Positions 1,279-5,521 of a stretch of DNA of 64,000 bases are shown here, piece after piece (within the stretch, counting starts at the first letter, position 1; the number at the start of each line of letters is the position of its first letter). A program made the position numbers and the translations under genes. Under the pieces are notes generated by a model. It saw only the letters and a list, made by a program, of their open reading frames with translations. It was not told the DNA's origin and did no database searches. The stretch is from Clostridia bacterium (GTDB lineage Bacteria; Bacillota; Clostridia; Oscillospirales; CAG-272): positions 62,001-126,000 of the forward strand of contig JAFTPV010000005.1 in assembly GCA_017463125.1 (NCBI GenBank). The letters are read 5' to 3'.

Positions 1279-1347
1279 TTTTTTAACACAAAATCAGCTT
1301 GCTAAAGCCAAACAAGCGAACAAAAAATTTTATCACATGAAACAAAG

Positions 1348-1387
1348 AAAACCGATGTCAGAAATTCAATCTAACATCGGTTTTTTA
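1348..1387 (+). terminator. Intrinsic terminator after the AraC gene
   Basis: An 11-bp perfect stem (1348-1358 with 1374-1384, core ACCGATGT/ACATCGGT), a 15-nt loop and a run of six T. It separates the AraC gene from the SIR2 module. Confidence 0.85.
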
Positions 1388-1433
1388 TCAAATTATGTTT
1401 TACAAAAAATGCGAATATTATATGAAGAAGCTC

Positions 1434-1462
1434 TTTAAATCCAAAAGCAAATATGGTATAAT
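1434..1462 (+). promoter_or_regulatory. Sigma-A promoter of the SIR2 module
   Basis: Perfect -10 TATAAT at 1457-1462 with a weak -35 TTTAAA at 1434-1439 and 17 bp spacing. The predicted start near 1469 gives a leader of about 160 nt before the first gene. Confidence 0.6.
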
Positions 1463-1468
1463 GATATC

Positions 1469-1631
1469 ATAAAATTTTATTTGGCGGAAACAAATATTTA
1501 CCCCCGGGAAATGCAAAATCATATTGCTTTTGATATTAGCAAGCATAGCGTCGGGCTACCCTACTCTGCCCGACACTAAAAATGCGGGAGACACGCACCC
1601 CTTATTAAAACCGAAAAAAAGGATTGAAAAA
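1469..1631 (+). other. Long, structured-looking 5' leader of the SIR2 module
   Basis: No convincing gene. It holds a perfect 7-bp hairpin GTCGGGC/GCCCGAC (1550-1556 with 1568-1574, 11-nt loop), followed by a TGCG/CGCA mini-hairpin (1583-1586 with 1594-1597) with loop GGAGACA. An open frame from a TTG at 1524 runs through it into the next gene but has no ribosome site. The segment is more GC-rich than its AT-rich surroundings. It could be an attenuator, a small RNA or nothing; I do not recognise a known family. Confidence 0.35.
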
Positions 1632-1925
1632 ATGAATTTAGAAACAATAAAAAACAGGCTCAAAACCTTACTTACAGATAAATCCTCGGGCATTCAACCG
1701 GAGTTTCAAAAACAGCTTTCGGACATAGTAAAACGCATTGAAAATTTTCTCCGCGACAATAGCGGTGAGTGCGATATTCCCGATGATTTAATAAAAGAAA
1801 TTGCGAGGTGTCTTGTGCCCGATATAATCGCATTTTTTGAAACCGAAGAAGCGAAACGCGAATTCGAGGCGTGGAAGCTCGATAAAGAAAAACATAATAC
1901 GAATAGAACAATTAAAAAGGACTGA
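1632..1925 (+). CDS. 97-aa charged helical protein, first gene of the SIR2 module
   Basis: Unrecognised small protein that looks almost wholly alpha-helical, with no signal peptide or membrane segment. Visible stretches are the amphipathic N-terminal half (TIKNRLKTLLTD, FQKQLSDIVKRIENFL) and the C-terminal half (DLIKEIARCLVPDIIAFF, then EEAKREFEAWKLDKEK). The ATG at 1632 has AAAGGA upstream; the longer frame from TTG 1524 lacks a ribosome site. It ends 8 nt before the SIR2 gene, so the two are almost certainly cotranscribed. By position it might be an antitoxin, adaptor or sensor for the SIR2 effector, but that is inference from the neighbour only. Confidence 0.6.
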   Translation: MNLETIKNRLKTLLTDKSSGIQPEFQKQLSDIVKRIENFLRDNSGECDIPDDLIKEIARCLVPDIIAFFETEEAKREFEAWKLDKEKHNTNRTIKKD

Positions 1926-1933
1926 CATGTAAT

Positions 1934-3127
1934 ATGGCAAAAAAAGGATTTGAACTTAAAACTATCACAAGGTTGATTTCATCAGACTCAGACAAGCCTA
2001 ACTGGTCTTTATGCGTTGGAGCAGGCATTTCGATACCTATATTTCCATCATGGTACGCATTGGCAAAAAACTTAGCCAATACGCTAATACCTGGATCGGA
2101 TTTGGATGAAGAAATGTTAACCGATCTCGCATTTTCTGCAGATGCCTTGATTCAAATGGTTAAAAACAAAACCAAAATTTCAGATAAAGACTTTGCCATC
2201 AAGATGAGTGAAATTCTATATTCTGATTTTAAAGAAAAAATAGAACCTAACGACTGGCCTGCGATTGTCAAAATTTTAGAAGCAAATCATTTGTCAAAAA
2301 TAACTGCAAAAGAGTGGGATGTATTTAACAAATATAGGGATACCGTTTTAAAAAACACAACATCTAGCGTAATCGCTAAATCTGTTTTCAAAGCAATTGA
2401 AGCCGGAATATCTCCAAAATCAATATTGTCTTTTAATGCCGAACCACTTCTTTTGGTTATGCTAAACTCTTTATTAATGCAAAGTAAAACCGACGAAGAT
2501 CATCCTATACCCAAGCAATTGTTTAACAAGGTTACCGGTAGCCTTTCAAACCAAAACGACAAACGAATACAATATGTTTTTTGTCATGGTTTGCTTCCGT
2601 TGTCAAACAAGAGTGATAAATTTACATATTCGACCGAAAAACTAGTTTTTTCAGAAGAAGAATATCTTCAGATAGCAAACAACTCGTTTTCGTGGCAGGC
2701 AACAACTTTTATAAACACATGTACAACACAACATATAATTTTCATAGGAACATCTTTAACAGATCCAAACATGAGAAGGTGGCTTAGTTGGACTCATTCA
2801 AACCGTTTGAATGAGATGAAAGAATACAACTTGAATGTAGAAGATAGCACACAACATTATTGGATAAAAGAAAAACCTAAAAATAGAGATTTGATGCCTT
2901 GGATAGAATCTGCAGTTTCACATTTAGGAGTAAGATTGATATGGTTGGATAGTTGGTCACAAGCTGGTGAAGCACTAGAGTTGGCTTTAGGTTTAAGAAA
3001 AAGAGAAGCAGCACCTAAAATAAATAAAACCTACAAAAAGAAAAATAATAATCAACAACGAAGAAAGACACACTCTAAAAAAGACAATGTAAAACATCGA
3101 AACAACAAAAAGAACGAGGCAAGATAG
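1934..3127 (+). CDS. SIR2-like domain protein, putative anti-phage NADase
   Basis: 397 aa. Residues about 22-345 form a SIR2-like Rossmann domain: GAGIS at 29-33 (nucleotide-binding loop), SFN with Asn168, CHG with His218 (positions expected for the catalytic Asn/His of defence-type SIR2 NADases), and IGTSLTDPN at 271-279. The last 40 residues are very rich in Lys, Arg and Asn and could bind nucleic acid. No transmembrane segment. Stand-alone SIR2 proteins of this kind typically deplete NAD+ on phage infection (family knowledge); activity here is inferred. AT-rich codon use and the position next to tRNA genes suggest horizontal acquisition. The stop codon lies inside the terminator hairpin. 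Confidence 0.75.
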   Translation: MAKKGFELKTITRLISSDSDKPNWSLCVGAGISIPIFPSWYALAKNLANTLIPGSDLDEEMLTDLAFSADALIQMVKNKTKISDKDFAIKMSEILYSDFKEKIEPNDWPAIVKILEANHLSKITAKEWDVFNKYRDTVLKNTTSSVIAKSVFKAIEAGISPKSILSFNAEPLLLVMLNSLLMQSKTDEDHPIPKQLFNKVTGSLSNQNDKRIQYVFCHGLLPLSNKSDKFTYSTEKLVFSEEEYLQIANNSFSWQATTFINTCTTQHIIFIGTSLTDPNMRRWLSWTHSNRLNEMKEYNLNVEDSTQHYWIKEKPKNRDLMPWIESAVSHLGVRLIWLDSWSQAGEALELALGLRKREAAPKINKTYKKKNNNQQRRKTHSKKDNVKHRNNKKNEAR

Positions 3128-3140
3128 CCTCGTTCTTTTT
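3111..3140 (+). terminator. Intrinsic terminator of the SIR2 module, overlapping its last codons
   Basis: Ten-bp perfect stem AGAACGAGGC/GCCTCGTTCT (3111-3120 with 3127-3136), 6-nt loop and a T run to 3140. The stop codon at 3125-3127 is within the hairpin. Confidence 0.9.
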
Positions 3141-3151
3141 GCATTTACACA

Positions 3152-3197
3152 TAAAAAACAAATCCGAACCACTTATCTGTTACGAAGTAGTTCGGAT
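3152..3197 (-). terminator. Intrinsic terminator after tRNA-Glu
   Basis: A 13-bp stem with one mismatch (3162-3174 with 3185-3197), followed on the minus strand by a T-rich tract (A run at 3153-3158 on the plus strand). Confidence 0.75.
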
Positions 3198-3207
3198 ATG
3201 TTTTGTT

Positions 3208-3282
3208 TGGTGACGCGTACGGGAATCGAACCCATGTTACAGCCGTGAAAGGGCCGTGTCTTAACCGCTTGACCAACGCGCC
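3208..3282 (-). tRNA. tRNA-Glu (anticodon UUC)
   Basis: Full cloverleaf read on the minus strand: acceptor GGCGCGT/ACGCGTC with encoded CCA, D arm, anticodon stem CGGCC/GGCTG around loop CTTTCAC (anticodon TTC), and T arm with GGTTCGATTCC. 75 nt including CCA. Downstream of tRNA-Met. Confidence 0.95.
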
Positions 3283-3283
3283 G

Positions 3284-3314
3284 AAAAATATCCGCCGCCA
3301 TTTTAGCGGCGGAT
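3284..3314 (-). terminator. Terminator-like hairpin between the two tRNA genes
   Basis: Perfect 9-bp GC-rich stem ATCCGCCGC/GCGGCGGAT (3290-3298 with 3306-3314), followed on the minus strand by TATTTTTC. It lies between tRNA-Met and tRNA-Glu, so it may lower tRNA-Glu output or act as a processing site. Confidence 0.6.
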
Positions 3315-3315
3315 T

Positions 3316-3392
3316 TGGTAGCGGATGTCGGATTTGAACCAACGACCTACCGGGTATGAACCGGGCGCTCTAGCCAGCTGAGCTAATCCGCC
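3316..3392 (-). tRNA. tRNA-Met (anticodon CAU)
   Basis: Cloverleaf on the minus strand: acceptor GGCGGAT pairing with ATCCGCT (one G-U), anticodon loop TTCATAC (anticodon CAT), T arm GGTTCAAATCC and encoded CCA; 77 nt. Elongator-type Met is most likely; CAT could also be the Ile2 tRNA read after lysidine modification, which sequence alone does not settle. Confidence 0.93.
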
Positions 3393-3425
3393 ATAAAGTC
3401 ATGCCTAGGATTTTCGTGCTTTGAT

Positions 3426-3454
3426 ATTATAGCATATCAAAACTCAAAAGTCAA
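3426..3454 (-). promoter_or_regulatory. Promoter of the tRNA-Met/tRNA-Glu pair
   Basis: On the minus strand, TTGACT (3449-3454), 17-bp spacer, TATAAT (3426-3431). A strong stable-RNA promoter. Confidence 0.85.
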
Positions 3455-3503
3455 TACTTTTTTGAAAGTTTTTTTGCAACAGGCGCTTTTATTTGCCTTT
3501 TAC

Positions 3504-3532
3504 TTGACAAATATATATAAAAATGGTAAAAT
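3504..3532 (+). promoter_or_regulatory. Promoter of the amidohydrolase-rnc operon
   Basis: TTGACA (3504-3509), 17-bp spacer, TAAAAT (3527-3532). The predicted start near 3539 leaves a short leader of about 24 nt before the ATG at 3563. Confidence 0.85.
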
Positions 3533-3562
3533 TTATTGATAGAAAAATGCATGGAGCAATAT

Positions 3563-4330
3563 ATGAACTTAGAAATTATTGATTTTCACACTCACCCCTT
3601 CACTACCCCCTCGGAAAACTTCTGCTTTTTCCCCGGAAGCGTTACAACGGACGGAGATTTTCTCTCCGACCTTGCCTCTGCGGGCATCGGCAGATTTGCG
3701 GGCAGTATCATAGATAAACAAAACAAGGACTTTGCATCTATCGTTCGTGCTAACAGGCGCGCTATTGAGCTTGGGGAGCGATACGGAGATAAATATATCC
3801 CGGGTATACACGTTCACCCCGACTACGTTTCAGAGTCGGAAAACGAGATAAACTCGGCTTGGGAGCTGGGTGTGCGCCTTGTCGGAGAGCTTGTGCCGTA
3901 TCATCACGGATACAGCTACGACCACTGTGGCTTACACGAGATTTTTGAGTGCCTTGGGGGACGTGATATGACGGTGAGTATTCACTCAACCGATAGCGAC
4001 CTTCCGCTAATGGAGAAGCTCGCGGCAGAGCACAAGGACGTAACCTTTGTTTTTGCCCACCCGGGTGACCTACCTAGAGTAAAAAATCATATTGAAGTTA
4101 TGCGTCGGTGCGAGAACGTGTATCTCGACCTCTCGGGCACGGGTCTTTTCCGCTACGGAATGTTAAAGCATCTTGTGGACTCTGTCGGAGCTGAAAGGAT
4201 ACTCTTCGGCACGGATTACCCGATATGCAACCCGGAGATGTACGTACACGCGGTCCTCTTTGAAAAAATCAGCGACAGAGAAAAGGAGCTTATCTTCGCA
4301 GGAAATGCAAAACGGCTCTTAAAACTATAA
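3563..4330 (+). CDS. Amidohydrolase-family metal-dependent hydrolase
   Basis: 255-aa TIM-barrel hydrolase of the amidohydrolase-2/TatD-like group. Metal-binding motifs are FHTHPF near the N-terminus, VSIHSTD and FVFAHPGD in the middle, and LFGTDYP near the C-terminus with the final Asp ligand. Start: the ATG at 3563 has GGAG six bases upstream and fits the mapped promoter; the upstream TTG at 3536 would precede the transcription start. It abuts the RNase III gene (next ATG immediately after its stop), so the two are an operon. The substrate cannot be told; members hydrolyse or decarboxylate small cyclic compounds or act on nucleic acids. Confidence 0.8.
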   Translation: MNLEIIDFHTHPFTTPSENFCFFPGSVTTDGDFLSDLASAGIGRFAGSIIDKQNKDFASIVRANRRAIELGERYGDKYIPGIHVHPDYVSESENEINSAWELGVRLVGELVPYHHGYSYDHCGLHEIFECLGGRDMTVSIHSTDSDLPLMEKLAAEHKDVTFVFAHPGDLPRVKNHIEVMRRCENVYLDLSGTGLFRYGMLKHLVDSVGAERILFGTDYPICNPEMYVHAVLFEKISDREKELIFAGNAKRLLKL

Positions 4331-5521
4331 ATGAACGGAAAAAATATGGATTTTACAAAACACATACCCGAAATAGAAAAGAAAATACGCTATACCTTCA
4401 AGGACAAGAATCTGCTGACACAGGCCTTCACCAGAGCCAGCTTCTGCAATGAGAAGAACCGCAGGGGCGAAAACTATATGTCAAACGAGGTGCTGGAATT
4501 TTTCGGTGACAGCGTGCTGTCTACGGCTATAATAACCCTTATGCTTGAGAAAAAAACAGAGCGATACCGTCACGGAATCAAGACCGACTGGAACGAGGGC
4601 GATTTCTCAAACCTCAGATCAAAGCTCAGCGACAAGCGCAATCTTTCAAAGAGCACAGCAGAGCTTGGGCTGCAAAGGTATCTCATAATGGGCGAGGGTG
4701 ACAAGGCGTGCGGTATTGAGAACGAGCCTTCGGTTATGGAGGACCTGTTTGAGAGCATTATCGGCGCGATATACGTTGACTCGGGTAACGATATAAAGAC
4801 GGTTATAAAGTCGGTAGGCTGTATGCTGGACGTTTCGGCTTACGGTGACACGAAGGAGGCTCCGATACAGAGCTATAAAAACGCTTTGCAAGAGTGGTGC
4901 GCTGACAAATCCCACAGACTTCCCGCCCCTGTGTACAAAACTTTAGAGGAGAGCGGACCTGACCACAAGAAGAGCTACAAGCGCGCCTGCTATATTGGCG
5001 ATAAGCTATACGGTGTCGGAGAAGGAAAAAATCAGAAGCTTGCCGACAGCGCCGCCGCAGAGGCTACGCTCCTTATGTTAAAGGAAGAAAACGCACCGAA
5101 AATCAAAATAGACTCTGACGCGCCCGCAAGGCTTAAAGAGCTATGCGCGAAGGGCAAGCACCCCTCTCCCGAGTGGCGAGACCTCGGTGAAACCGAGAAA
5201 TCAACAGACTCCTCGAAGGAATTTATGGTAGAGTGTCGCGCTATGGGTAAGAGCGCCGTAGGCATCGCTAACAGCAAGGCGGAGGCAAGAGCGCTAGCCG
5301 CAAGGAGCATACTTGATGCCGTAATAGTAAAAAACAAAGAAAAATCGGATAAAGCTTCAAAAAAACAGGATAAAAAGAGCTATCCAAAGCTGACCGTCAA
5401 GGATAAGCCAATGCCAAAAGAGGCAAAAGGCGCAGAAGCGCCAAAGCCCAAGCAACAGAGGACATCAAAGGGCGCACACGCGCCAAAGAAGCGTCCCTCC
5501 TGGCAGAAAAAGCACCTATAA
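4331..5521 (+). CDS. rnc: Ribonuclease III with two dsRNA-binding domains and a basic tail
   Basis: 396 aa, far longer than the usual 220-240. Residues 10-170 form the RNase III catalytic domain: signature NEVLEFFGDS (E53, E56, D60) and EDLFESIIGA (D138, E141) match the metal-binding residues of E. coli Rnc, with a roughly 12-residue insertion around RYRHGIKTDWNE. A standard dsRBD follows (about 177-250), then what looks like a second, divergent dsRBD (about 264-332, ending SKAEARALAARSILDAV), then a Lys-rich low-complexity tail (333-396). It processes rRNA and other double-stranded RNA. The first ATG follows the previous stop directly; an in-frame ATG at 4346 with GGA upstream is an alternative start. 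Ends at a strong terminator. Confidence 0.9.
   Translation: MNGKNMDFTKHIPEIEKKIRYTFKDKNLLTQAFTRASFCNEKNRRGENYMSNEVLEFFGDSVLSTAIITLMLEKKTERYRHGIKTDWNEGDFSNLRSKLSDKRNLSKSTAELGLQRYLIMGEGDKACGIENEPSVMEDLFESIIGAIYVDSGNDIKTVIKSVGCMLDVSAYGDTKEAPIQSYKNALQEWCADKSHRLPAPVYKTLEESGPDHKKSYKRACYIGDKLYGVGEGKNQKLADSAAAEATLLMLKEENAPKIKIDSDAPARLKELCAKGKHPSPEWRDLGETEKSTDSSKEFMVECRAMGKSAVGIANSKAEARALAARSILDAVIVKNKEKSDKASKKQDKKSYPKLTVKDKPMPKEAKGAEAPKPKQQRTSKGAHAPKKRPSWQKKHL

Follow-up and report, generated by a model that had tools for sequence, protein, structure and literature searches.

A SIR2-domain gene as probable cargo of a putative integrative element at the terminator of a tRNA-Glu gene in a Clostridia genome

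The SIR2-domain gene characterized in this study is best explained as cargo of an integrative element associated with the terminator of a tRNA gene, a reading to which we assign a probability of about 0.75. It is located in a window of 64,000 nucleotides (G000:C2:62001-126000), by which we refer to the whole stretch of DNA that was analysed, in a source genome of 1.9 Mb on 28 contigs with a completeness of 92%. A sequence-only reading had described a compact unit consisting of promoter, leader, a gene for a 97-residue protein (ORF97), SIR2 gene and terminator next to a tRNA pair, and it had proposed that ORF97 and the leader belong to the SIR2 protein as parts of one system. The layout of the unit and its coordinates were right and are as follows.

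499-1278: AraC-type regulator, left neighbour of the unit (Pfam search)
1434-1462, plus strand: promoter-like site TTTAAA-17-TATAAT with extended -10 (TG), 10 of 12 consensus matches, called from consensus only
1528-1642, plus strand: leader stretch with a second copy in G000:C24 (blastn)
1550-1574, plus strand: leader hairpin 1, GTCGGGC/GCCCGAC, perfect arms at 1550-1556 and 1568-1574, 11-nt loop
1583-1597, plus strand: leader hairpin 2, TGCG-GGAGACA-CGCA, within the conserved block GCGGGAGACnCGCACCCCTTAT
1632-1925, plus strand: ORF97, 97 aa, of an unnamed family, seemingly of small mobile-element proteins (ORF list, homologues)
1934-3127, plus strand: SIR2-domain protein, 397 aa, with GAGIS, N168, H218, GTSLTDPN and a basic C-terminal tail
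3106-3141, plus strand: intrinsic terminator, stem 3106-3120/3127-3141, across the SIR2 stop codon, -24.1 kcal/mol
3162-3197, no strand assigned: tRNA-terminator hairpin ATCCGAAC...GTTCGGAT, 10 nt off the 3' end of tRNA-Glu
3208-3282, minus strand: tRNA-Glu(TTC), convergent with the unit
3316-3392, minus strand: tRNA-Met(CAT)

ORF97 and the SIR2 gene are separated by 8 nt, and the terminator behind them is absent from the listing of a simple terminator scan. An Rfam scan of positions 1280-3500 returned nothing but the two tRNAs at gathering score. The GC content ranges from 0.34 to 0.39 in 500-bp windows across 1501-3250; the claim that the unit is richer in AT than the genes that follow holds against the windows at 3501-5500 (0.45-0.52), which provide the only contrast, but the AraC gene has a similar composition (0.37-0.40). 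Between the AraC gene and the tRNAs there is no ORF for an integrase or relaxase, and a search for a flanking repeat with 95 bp of the tRNA-side end found no second copy in the window or in its own genome. It is plausible that the unit was inserted between the AraC gene and the tRNAs, with a left end that is given only as about 1400, and tRNA-Glu is the probable target of its integration. The unit looks like a mobile element, whose mobility and ends are putative.

The SIR2 protein matches the Pfam family SIR2_2 (PF13289) with an E-value of 2e-9 (38.1 bits against a cut-off of 24.5) and the PADLOC family ThsA at 3e-7. As a single sequence it has no match among PDB chains; a profile of four relatives matches chains of ThsA (7.9e-7), KomC (4e-5) and DSR2 (2e-4), which bears out the proposed kinship to NADases of phage defence. 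The residues N168 and H218, described earlier as intact, are indeed invariant in the alignment of four sequences, one row of which covers only the reading frame left open in a broken homologue. A HECW_N match under the cut-off was dropped. With the protein as query, we identified relatives in two of 147 related genomes (its own and one weak match, E limit 1e-3), in three of 391 genomes of the class (its own and two others, E limit 1e-4) and only in its own among 189 genomes of the phylum (E limit 1e-10), and none in phage, plasmid and viral collections. The closest homologue, a broken gene in G253, shares 37% over residues 1-238. Judged by its family, the gene is a probable NAD-destroying phage-defence gene, and its product would most likely hydrolyse NAD+ in response to phages and thereby abort the infection. 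Elsewhere, a SIR2 relative of 405 aa is located beside a 935-aa protein without PADLOC match (L055, G229:C97, 560-4602), which possibly constitute an unnamed two-gene pair.

The proposed partnership with ORF97 can be assessed from the distribution of both genes. SIR2_2 was detected at E <= 1e-5 in 12 genes of 11 of the 147 genomes, and none of the 11 genes other than that of the window has an ORF97 relative in the surrounding 9-17 kb, as probed with an HMM of 12 members that could miss very short or diverged relatives and in surroundings partly cut by contig ends. The SIR2 homologues in G253, G126 and G229 are equally devoid of ORF97. Among the 20 genomes with ORF97, only the source genome and G072 contain SIR2_2, in the latter on another contig, and 19 of the 20 thus have no SIR2_2 near ORF97. 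Among the 147 genomes, the pair was encountered a single time, and it does not recur in the co-occurrence check that had been set beforehand as the means to refute a partnership. We consequently regard it as improbable that both genes form a dedicated defence system, in which ORF97 would act as inhibitor, sensor or adaptor of SIR2 with the leader RNA as a further component. Such a system would account for the single transcription unit with its 8-nt gap, the intactness of both genes and the structured leader, but it conflicts with the distribution described above and with a second copy of the leader that precedes integrases. Since the pair is not recurrent and ORF97 relatives are found beside relaxases, recombinases and hairpins, the dedicated system is not upheld. 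Their arrangement 8 nt apart in one unit may still link the two genes at the window locus.

ORF97 itself is a real gene, as had been claimed: the comparison with its homologue in G038 indicates purifying selection (dN 0.23, dS about 2.2 and saturated). Homologues occupy 24 places in 20 of the 147 related genomes, the window included, and share the C-terminal consensus IPDxxIxAIARxLLPDIxxFFxSEEGKxEFExWK. The profile searches that placed the SIR2 protein in SIR2_2/ThsA yielded no family above the cut-off for ORF97: Pfam gave none for 12 members of the family, PADLOC contained none and all NCBIfam matches of ORF97 were below their cut-offs. Dropped candidates include matches to MinE (E 0.13, below cut-off) and to PHROG families (E 0.02-0.1), and an NCBIfam match of one relative far under its cut-off. 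ORF97 relatives are contained in one plasmid record and seven records of the phage collection and in none of the viral_contigs; the plasmid record and two of the phage-collection records were examined (L141-L143), with the tRNA-terminator hairpin present in L142 only. The nearest relative (G038, 65%) lies beside a tRNA-Glu/Met pair that is equivalent to that of the window; the hairpin is the same, SIR2 is absent, and a different gene follows past the tRNAs. In L040 (G123:C60), an ORF97-type motif closes a protein of 120 aa, whose gene lies downstream of one for a 988-aa protein that by eye resembles a restriction subunit.

The neighbours of ORF97 were examined at all 23 places other than the window. 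A serine recombinase is found downstream in six of the 24 places, assigned by Pfam in L033 and L045 (the same as L025) and by eye in L032, L039, L041 and L043. Upstream, Pfam identified a Relaxase in L029 (the same as L006) and L038, Mob_Pre in L046 (the same as L026) and in the independent record L142, ParB in L045 and Rep_ORF2-G2P in L044 (the same as L024). Several of the putative ORF97-type elements encode HUH-type enzymes (relaxase, Mob_Pre, Rep), and these show no integrase among the neighbours examined. Six places (L037, L040, L042, L048, L049, L050), several of them at contig ends, have neither hairpin nor recombinase. ORF97 thus seems to be a small mobile-element protein in the position of an accessory protein beside genes of recombination or mobilisation, and its neighbours suggest that it probably serves excision, integration or mobilisation and not SIR2.

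A second feature of the ORF97 places is the hairpin on the side of the tRNA. In 11 of the 24 places (window, L027, L029, L030, L031, L034, L035, L036, L038, L044, L046) the full hairpin is found up to 3 kb downstream, facing a tRNA called by ARAGORN in ten of them; in L046 none was called, though the sequence suggests one. A twelfth hairpin lies within the end of the recombinase gene of L033, and L028 contains a partial copy of 41 nt that is 98% identical to that of the window, with no tRNA found. Across the 147 genomes, the hairpin pattern is rare and occurs at 62 places in 43 genomes with up to four per genome, compared to a match in a single genome (G056) for a reversed control pattern. In G122, the only three hairpins coincide with its three ORF97 places. 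Some 50 of the 62 hairpins lack an ORF97 relative in their vicinity; the hairpin is therefore not specific to ORF97 and the link between the two is one-sided. We examined 30 of the 62 loci (L144-L173), at most one per genome. Four of these match the ORF97 HMM within flanks of 1.5 kb, and a fifth (L171) is the same place as L035, with ORF97 at a greater distance. In 21 of the 30 loci, exactly 10 nt separate the start of the hairpin from the 3' end of a tRNA; of the other nine, three show a distance of 6-22 nt, three of 195-478 nt and three have no tRNA on that side. The tRNAs of the 23 hairpins within 11 nt are Leu (10), Glu (6) and Pro (4), besides Ala, Lys and Val. TnpV-type genes were noticed by eye at five of 16 further hairpin loci (L149, L151, L161, L166, L168), and some hairpins adjoin ordinary-looking chromosomal genes (L156, by eye).

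In the genus of the window, tRNA-Glu is directly followed by an unrelated terminator at six loci (L109, L110, L111, L175, L176, L177), and in two of them (G050, G027) the hairpin is found 195 and 424 nt further on; L174 contains a degenerate hairpin. The hairpin may either have been carried in by the elements or have been a pre-existing target. The sequence past the terminator at L109, L110 and L111 (G050, G027, G014) looks by eye like an inverted remnant of the 3' part of tRNA-Glu, perhaps a scar of earlier insertions.

At five places, other genes lie in the gap that separates ORF97 from the hairpin. In the window it holds SIR2. In L028 (G023:C2, 434-2252), the ORF97 relative is followed by an antitoxin-type Panacea gene (SocA_Panacea, 6.8e-18), a gene for a 254-aa protein with a BCCT match below the cut-off and the partial copy of the tRNA-Glu terminator, a gene pair that is possibly toxin-antitoxin cargo. 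In L035, the gap is taken up by an AIPR protein (1.8e-47) together with a small protein whose HTH match is below the cut-off; in L038 by a protein encoded in the opposing direction, which has pentapeptide repeats (5.5e-14), an NPHP3_N-type NTPase match (1.8e-7) and a NACHT match below the cut-off; and in L030 by an HTH-TPR protein and TnpV (2.4e-29). PADLOC assigned no family to the AIPR protein of L035 and the pentapeptide protein of L038, matched the pair of L028 only at E > 0.005 and returned HTH-domain matches for the proteins of L030. Because PADLOC is nearly blank on the gap proteins, their label as defence genes rests on Pfam names and general knowledge, and with five cases and no control set, an enrichment of defence genes in the gap is a suggestion only. 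No gene of note is present in the gap at seven further tRNA-linked places (L027, L029, L031, L034, L036, L044, L046). These places bear on the idea that the unit is a toxin-antitoxin pair, in which either ORF97 or the leader RNA would act as the antitoxin to SIR2. Its small gene upstream of a potentially toxic one has the arrangement of such a pair and another gap carries the Panacea gene with a second gene, but ORF97 evidently needs no toxin at the seven places, and we consider this the least probable of the explanations.

The leader had been described as structured and as part of the SIR2 system. Its core at 1545-1605 folds with a z-score of -3.71, with none of 200 shuffles as good, but the fold of the longer stretch of 172 nt (1469-1640) is unremarkable (z -1.38, 18 of 200 shuffles). 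The sole other copy is found in the same genome (G000:C24, L115 8025-7905, minus strand), with 72% identity to 1528-1642 over 126 columns in blastn (E 4e-13) and 77% in a whole-genome search (E 2.3e-12). It precedes a tandem pair of tyrosine integrases (Pfam Phage_integrase, 1.1e-28 and 9.1e-29) in a unit between a Gfo/Idh-like gene (by eye) and tRNA-Pro, which dissociates the leader from SIR2. That unit (G000:C24:7000-23000, L115 3428-8329) comprises the integrase pair and an ORF of 468 aa in opposing orientation, for which neither Pfam nor PADLOC gave a match, followed by tRNA-Pro; by eye, a partial tRNA-Pro duplicate lies less than 200 bp upstream of the tRNA. The two leader copies share a pair of 22-nt blocks, of which one is identical and the other differs at a single position; these flank a hairpin of different sequence, which in the C24 copy of hairpin 1 is in a shifted register. 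Both copies fold (z -2.17 for C24), but with the shift in register the covariation is not clean, and a structure cannot be proven from two sequences.

Searches for further copies were negative. Compared with the 24 fetched loci of ORF97 relatives, the leader gave nothing better than E 0.008, and the exact gapped pattern retrieved just the two G000 copies among 391 genomes of the class. The 19-nt pattern of the conserved block, with up to two mismatches, has matches in two of the 147 genomes: two in G000 and one in G036, which lies inside an apparent gene and is chance-like. There is no match in phages; in plasmids, the C24 copy has none and the window copy one of 25 nt outside the block (E 0.4). 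The exact 19-mer is absent from the viral contigs, and the pattern matches examined in L134-L137, L200 and L201 were attributed to chance, as were a single match in genome_contigs (a Filomicrobium contig, from organism and expected number) and, by eye, BLAST matches of the C24 leader at 14 places in 13 other relatives (E 0.001-0.1). The leader is neither specific to SIR2 nor a general companion of ORF97, and we infer that it is a cis-acting element of mobile DNA in this genome, either a regulatory RNA of the canT/put antitermination type or an origin of transfer. Latter would imply that a visiting conjugative element mobilises in trans two units that lack a relaxase. The variable hairpin between conserved blocks, the lack of a visible relaxase in both units and CGCACCCCTTA, which may resemble known nic sites, are consistent with this proposal; the scarcity of the pattern in the 147 genomes and its absence from phages and, within the block, from plasmids speak against it. 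We consider it unlikely, if less so than the two explanations weighed above. As the sole other copy precedes an integrase pair, the leader would likely control the operon.

Taken together, we favour the SIR2 gene as cargo: the region of about 1400-3207 would be a compact element integrated directly at the tRNA-Glu terminator, or what remains of the tRNA-proximal part of such an element. ORF97 would be a gene of the element family that, by its neighbours, probably helps excision, integration or mobilisation, and the leader would act in cis, likely in operon control. The SIR2 gene would be exchangeable cargo, placed between ORF97 and the end that faces the tRNA; as its family suggests, the SIR2 protein would most likely destroy NAD+ upon phage infection and thereby abort it. 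Several points count against this reading, namely the lack of an integrase, relaxase or repeat in the window unit, the hairpin that is not specific to ORF97, the six of 24 places with neither hairpin nor recombinase, the leader with no match better than E 0.008 at the loci of ORF97 relatives and the scant PADLOC matches of the gap proteins. On a broader scale, one may speculate that the relatives of the window, and probably gut Clostridia generally, harbour integrative elements of a family not yet described, which would plug into tRNA terminators at a fixed spacing of 10 nt and replace or target the conserved hairpin. Their tRNA-side end would consist of an ORF97- or TnpV-type protein followed by a slot for defence genes, HUH enzymes recognising the hairpin could integrate them, and the expression of defence genes could be coupled to excision through a shared structured leader. 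In its entirety, we hold this scenario to be rather unlikely, if somewhat less so than a transfer origin in the leader.

Every ingredient of the cargo element is of a known kind. In the open-licence literature, we found no evident description of the ORF97 family or the hairpin landmark; both are unnamed and could easily escape searches by words. ORF97 and the hairpin mark a spot of differing genes, several of them by Pfam of defence or toxin-antitoxin type; if this is upheld in a controlled survey, the two could be used to find new defence genes in these bacteria. How elements at tRNA terminators integrate when no integrase is evident is a further question that can be tested.

With NADases of the ThsA, KomC and DSR2 type, the window protein shares the SIR2_2 assignment by profile, the catalytic Asn and His and the GAGxS and GxSxTDPN motifs. 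Unlike these proteins, it has 397 residues, with nothing but a short basic tail added to the SIR2 domain, compared to about 1000 aa in DSR1/DSR2, where SIR2 forms the N-terminus. Unlike in Thoeris, there is no adjacent TIR-domain ThsB, the neighbours being ORF97, for which Pfam yields neither TIR nor any other match above the cut-off, AraC and the tRNAs; unlike in ThsA, Pfam detects no C-terminal SLOG domain, and the PADLOC ThsA match covers residues 235-302 only. The leader resembles canT, conAn2 and put, which are described as cis-acting structured antitermination RNAs of mobile elements, in being a structured leader at the start of an element operon, a likeness by analogy and not by sequence comparison (PMC11658703). 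Unlike integrative and mobilizable or Tn4451-type elements, the window unit has no recombinase or relaxase, and ORF97 belongs to no named family. Tn4451-type elements carry the serine recombinase TnpX together with the small proteins TnpV and TnpW. The ORF97 places resemble both kinds of element in the small proteins next to a serine recombinase or relaxase, the tRNA-side site and the cargo, and the TnpV that Pfam identifies in L030 is a feature in common with Tn4451.
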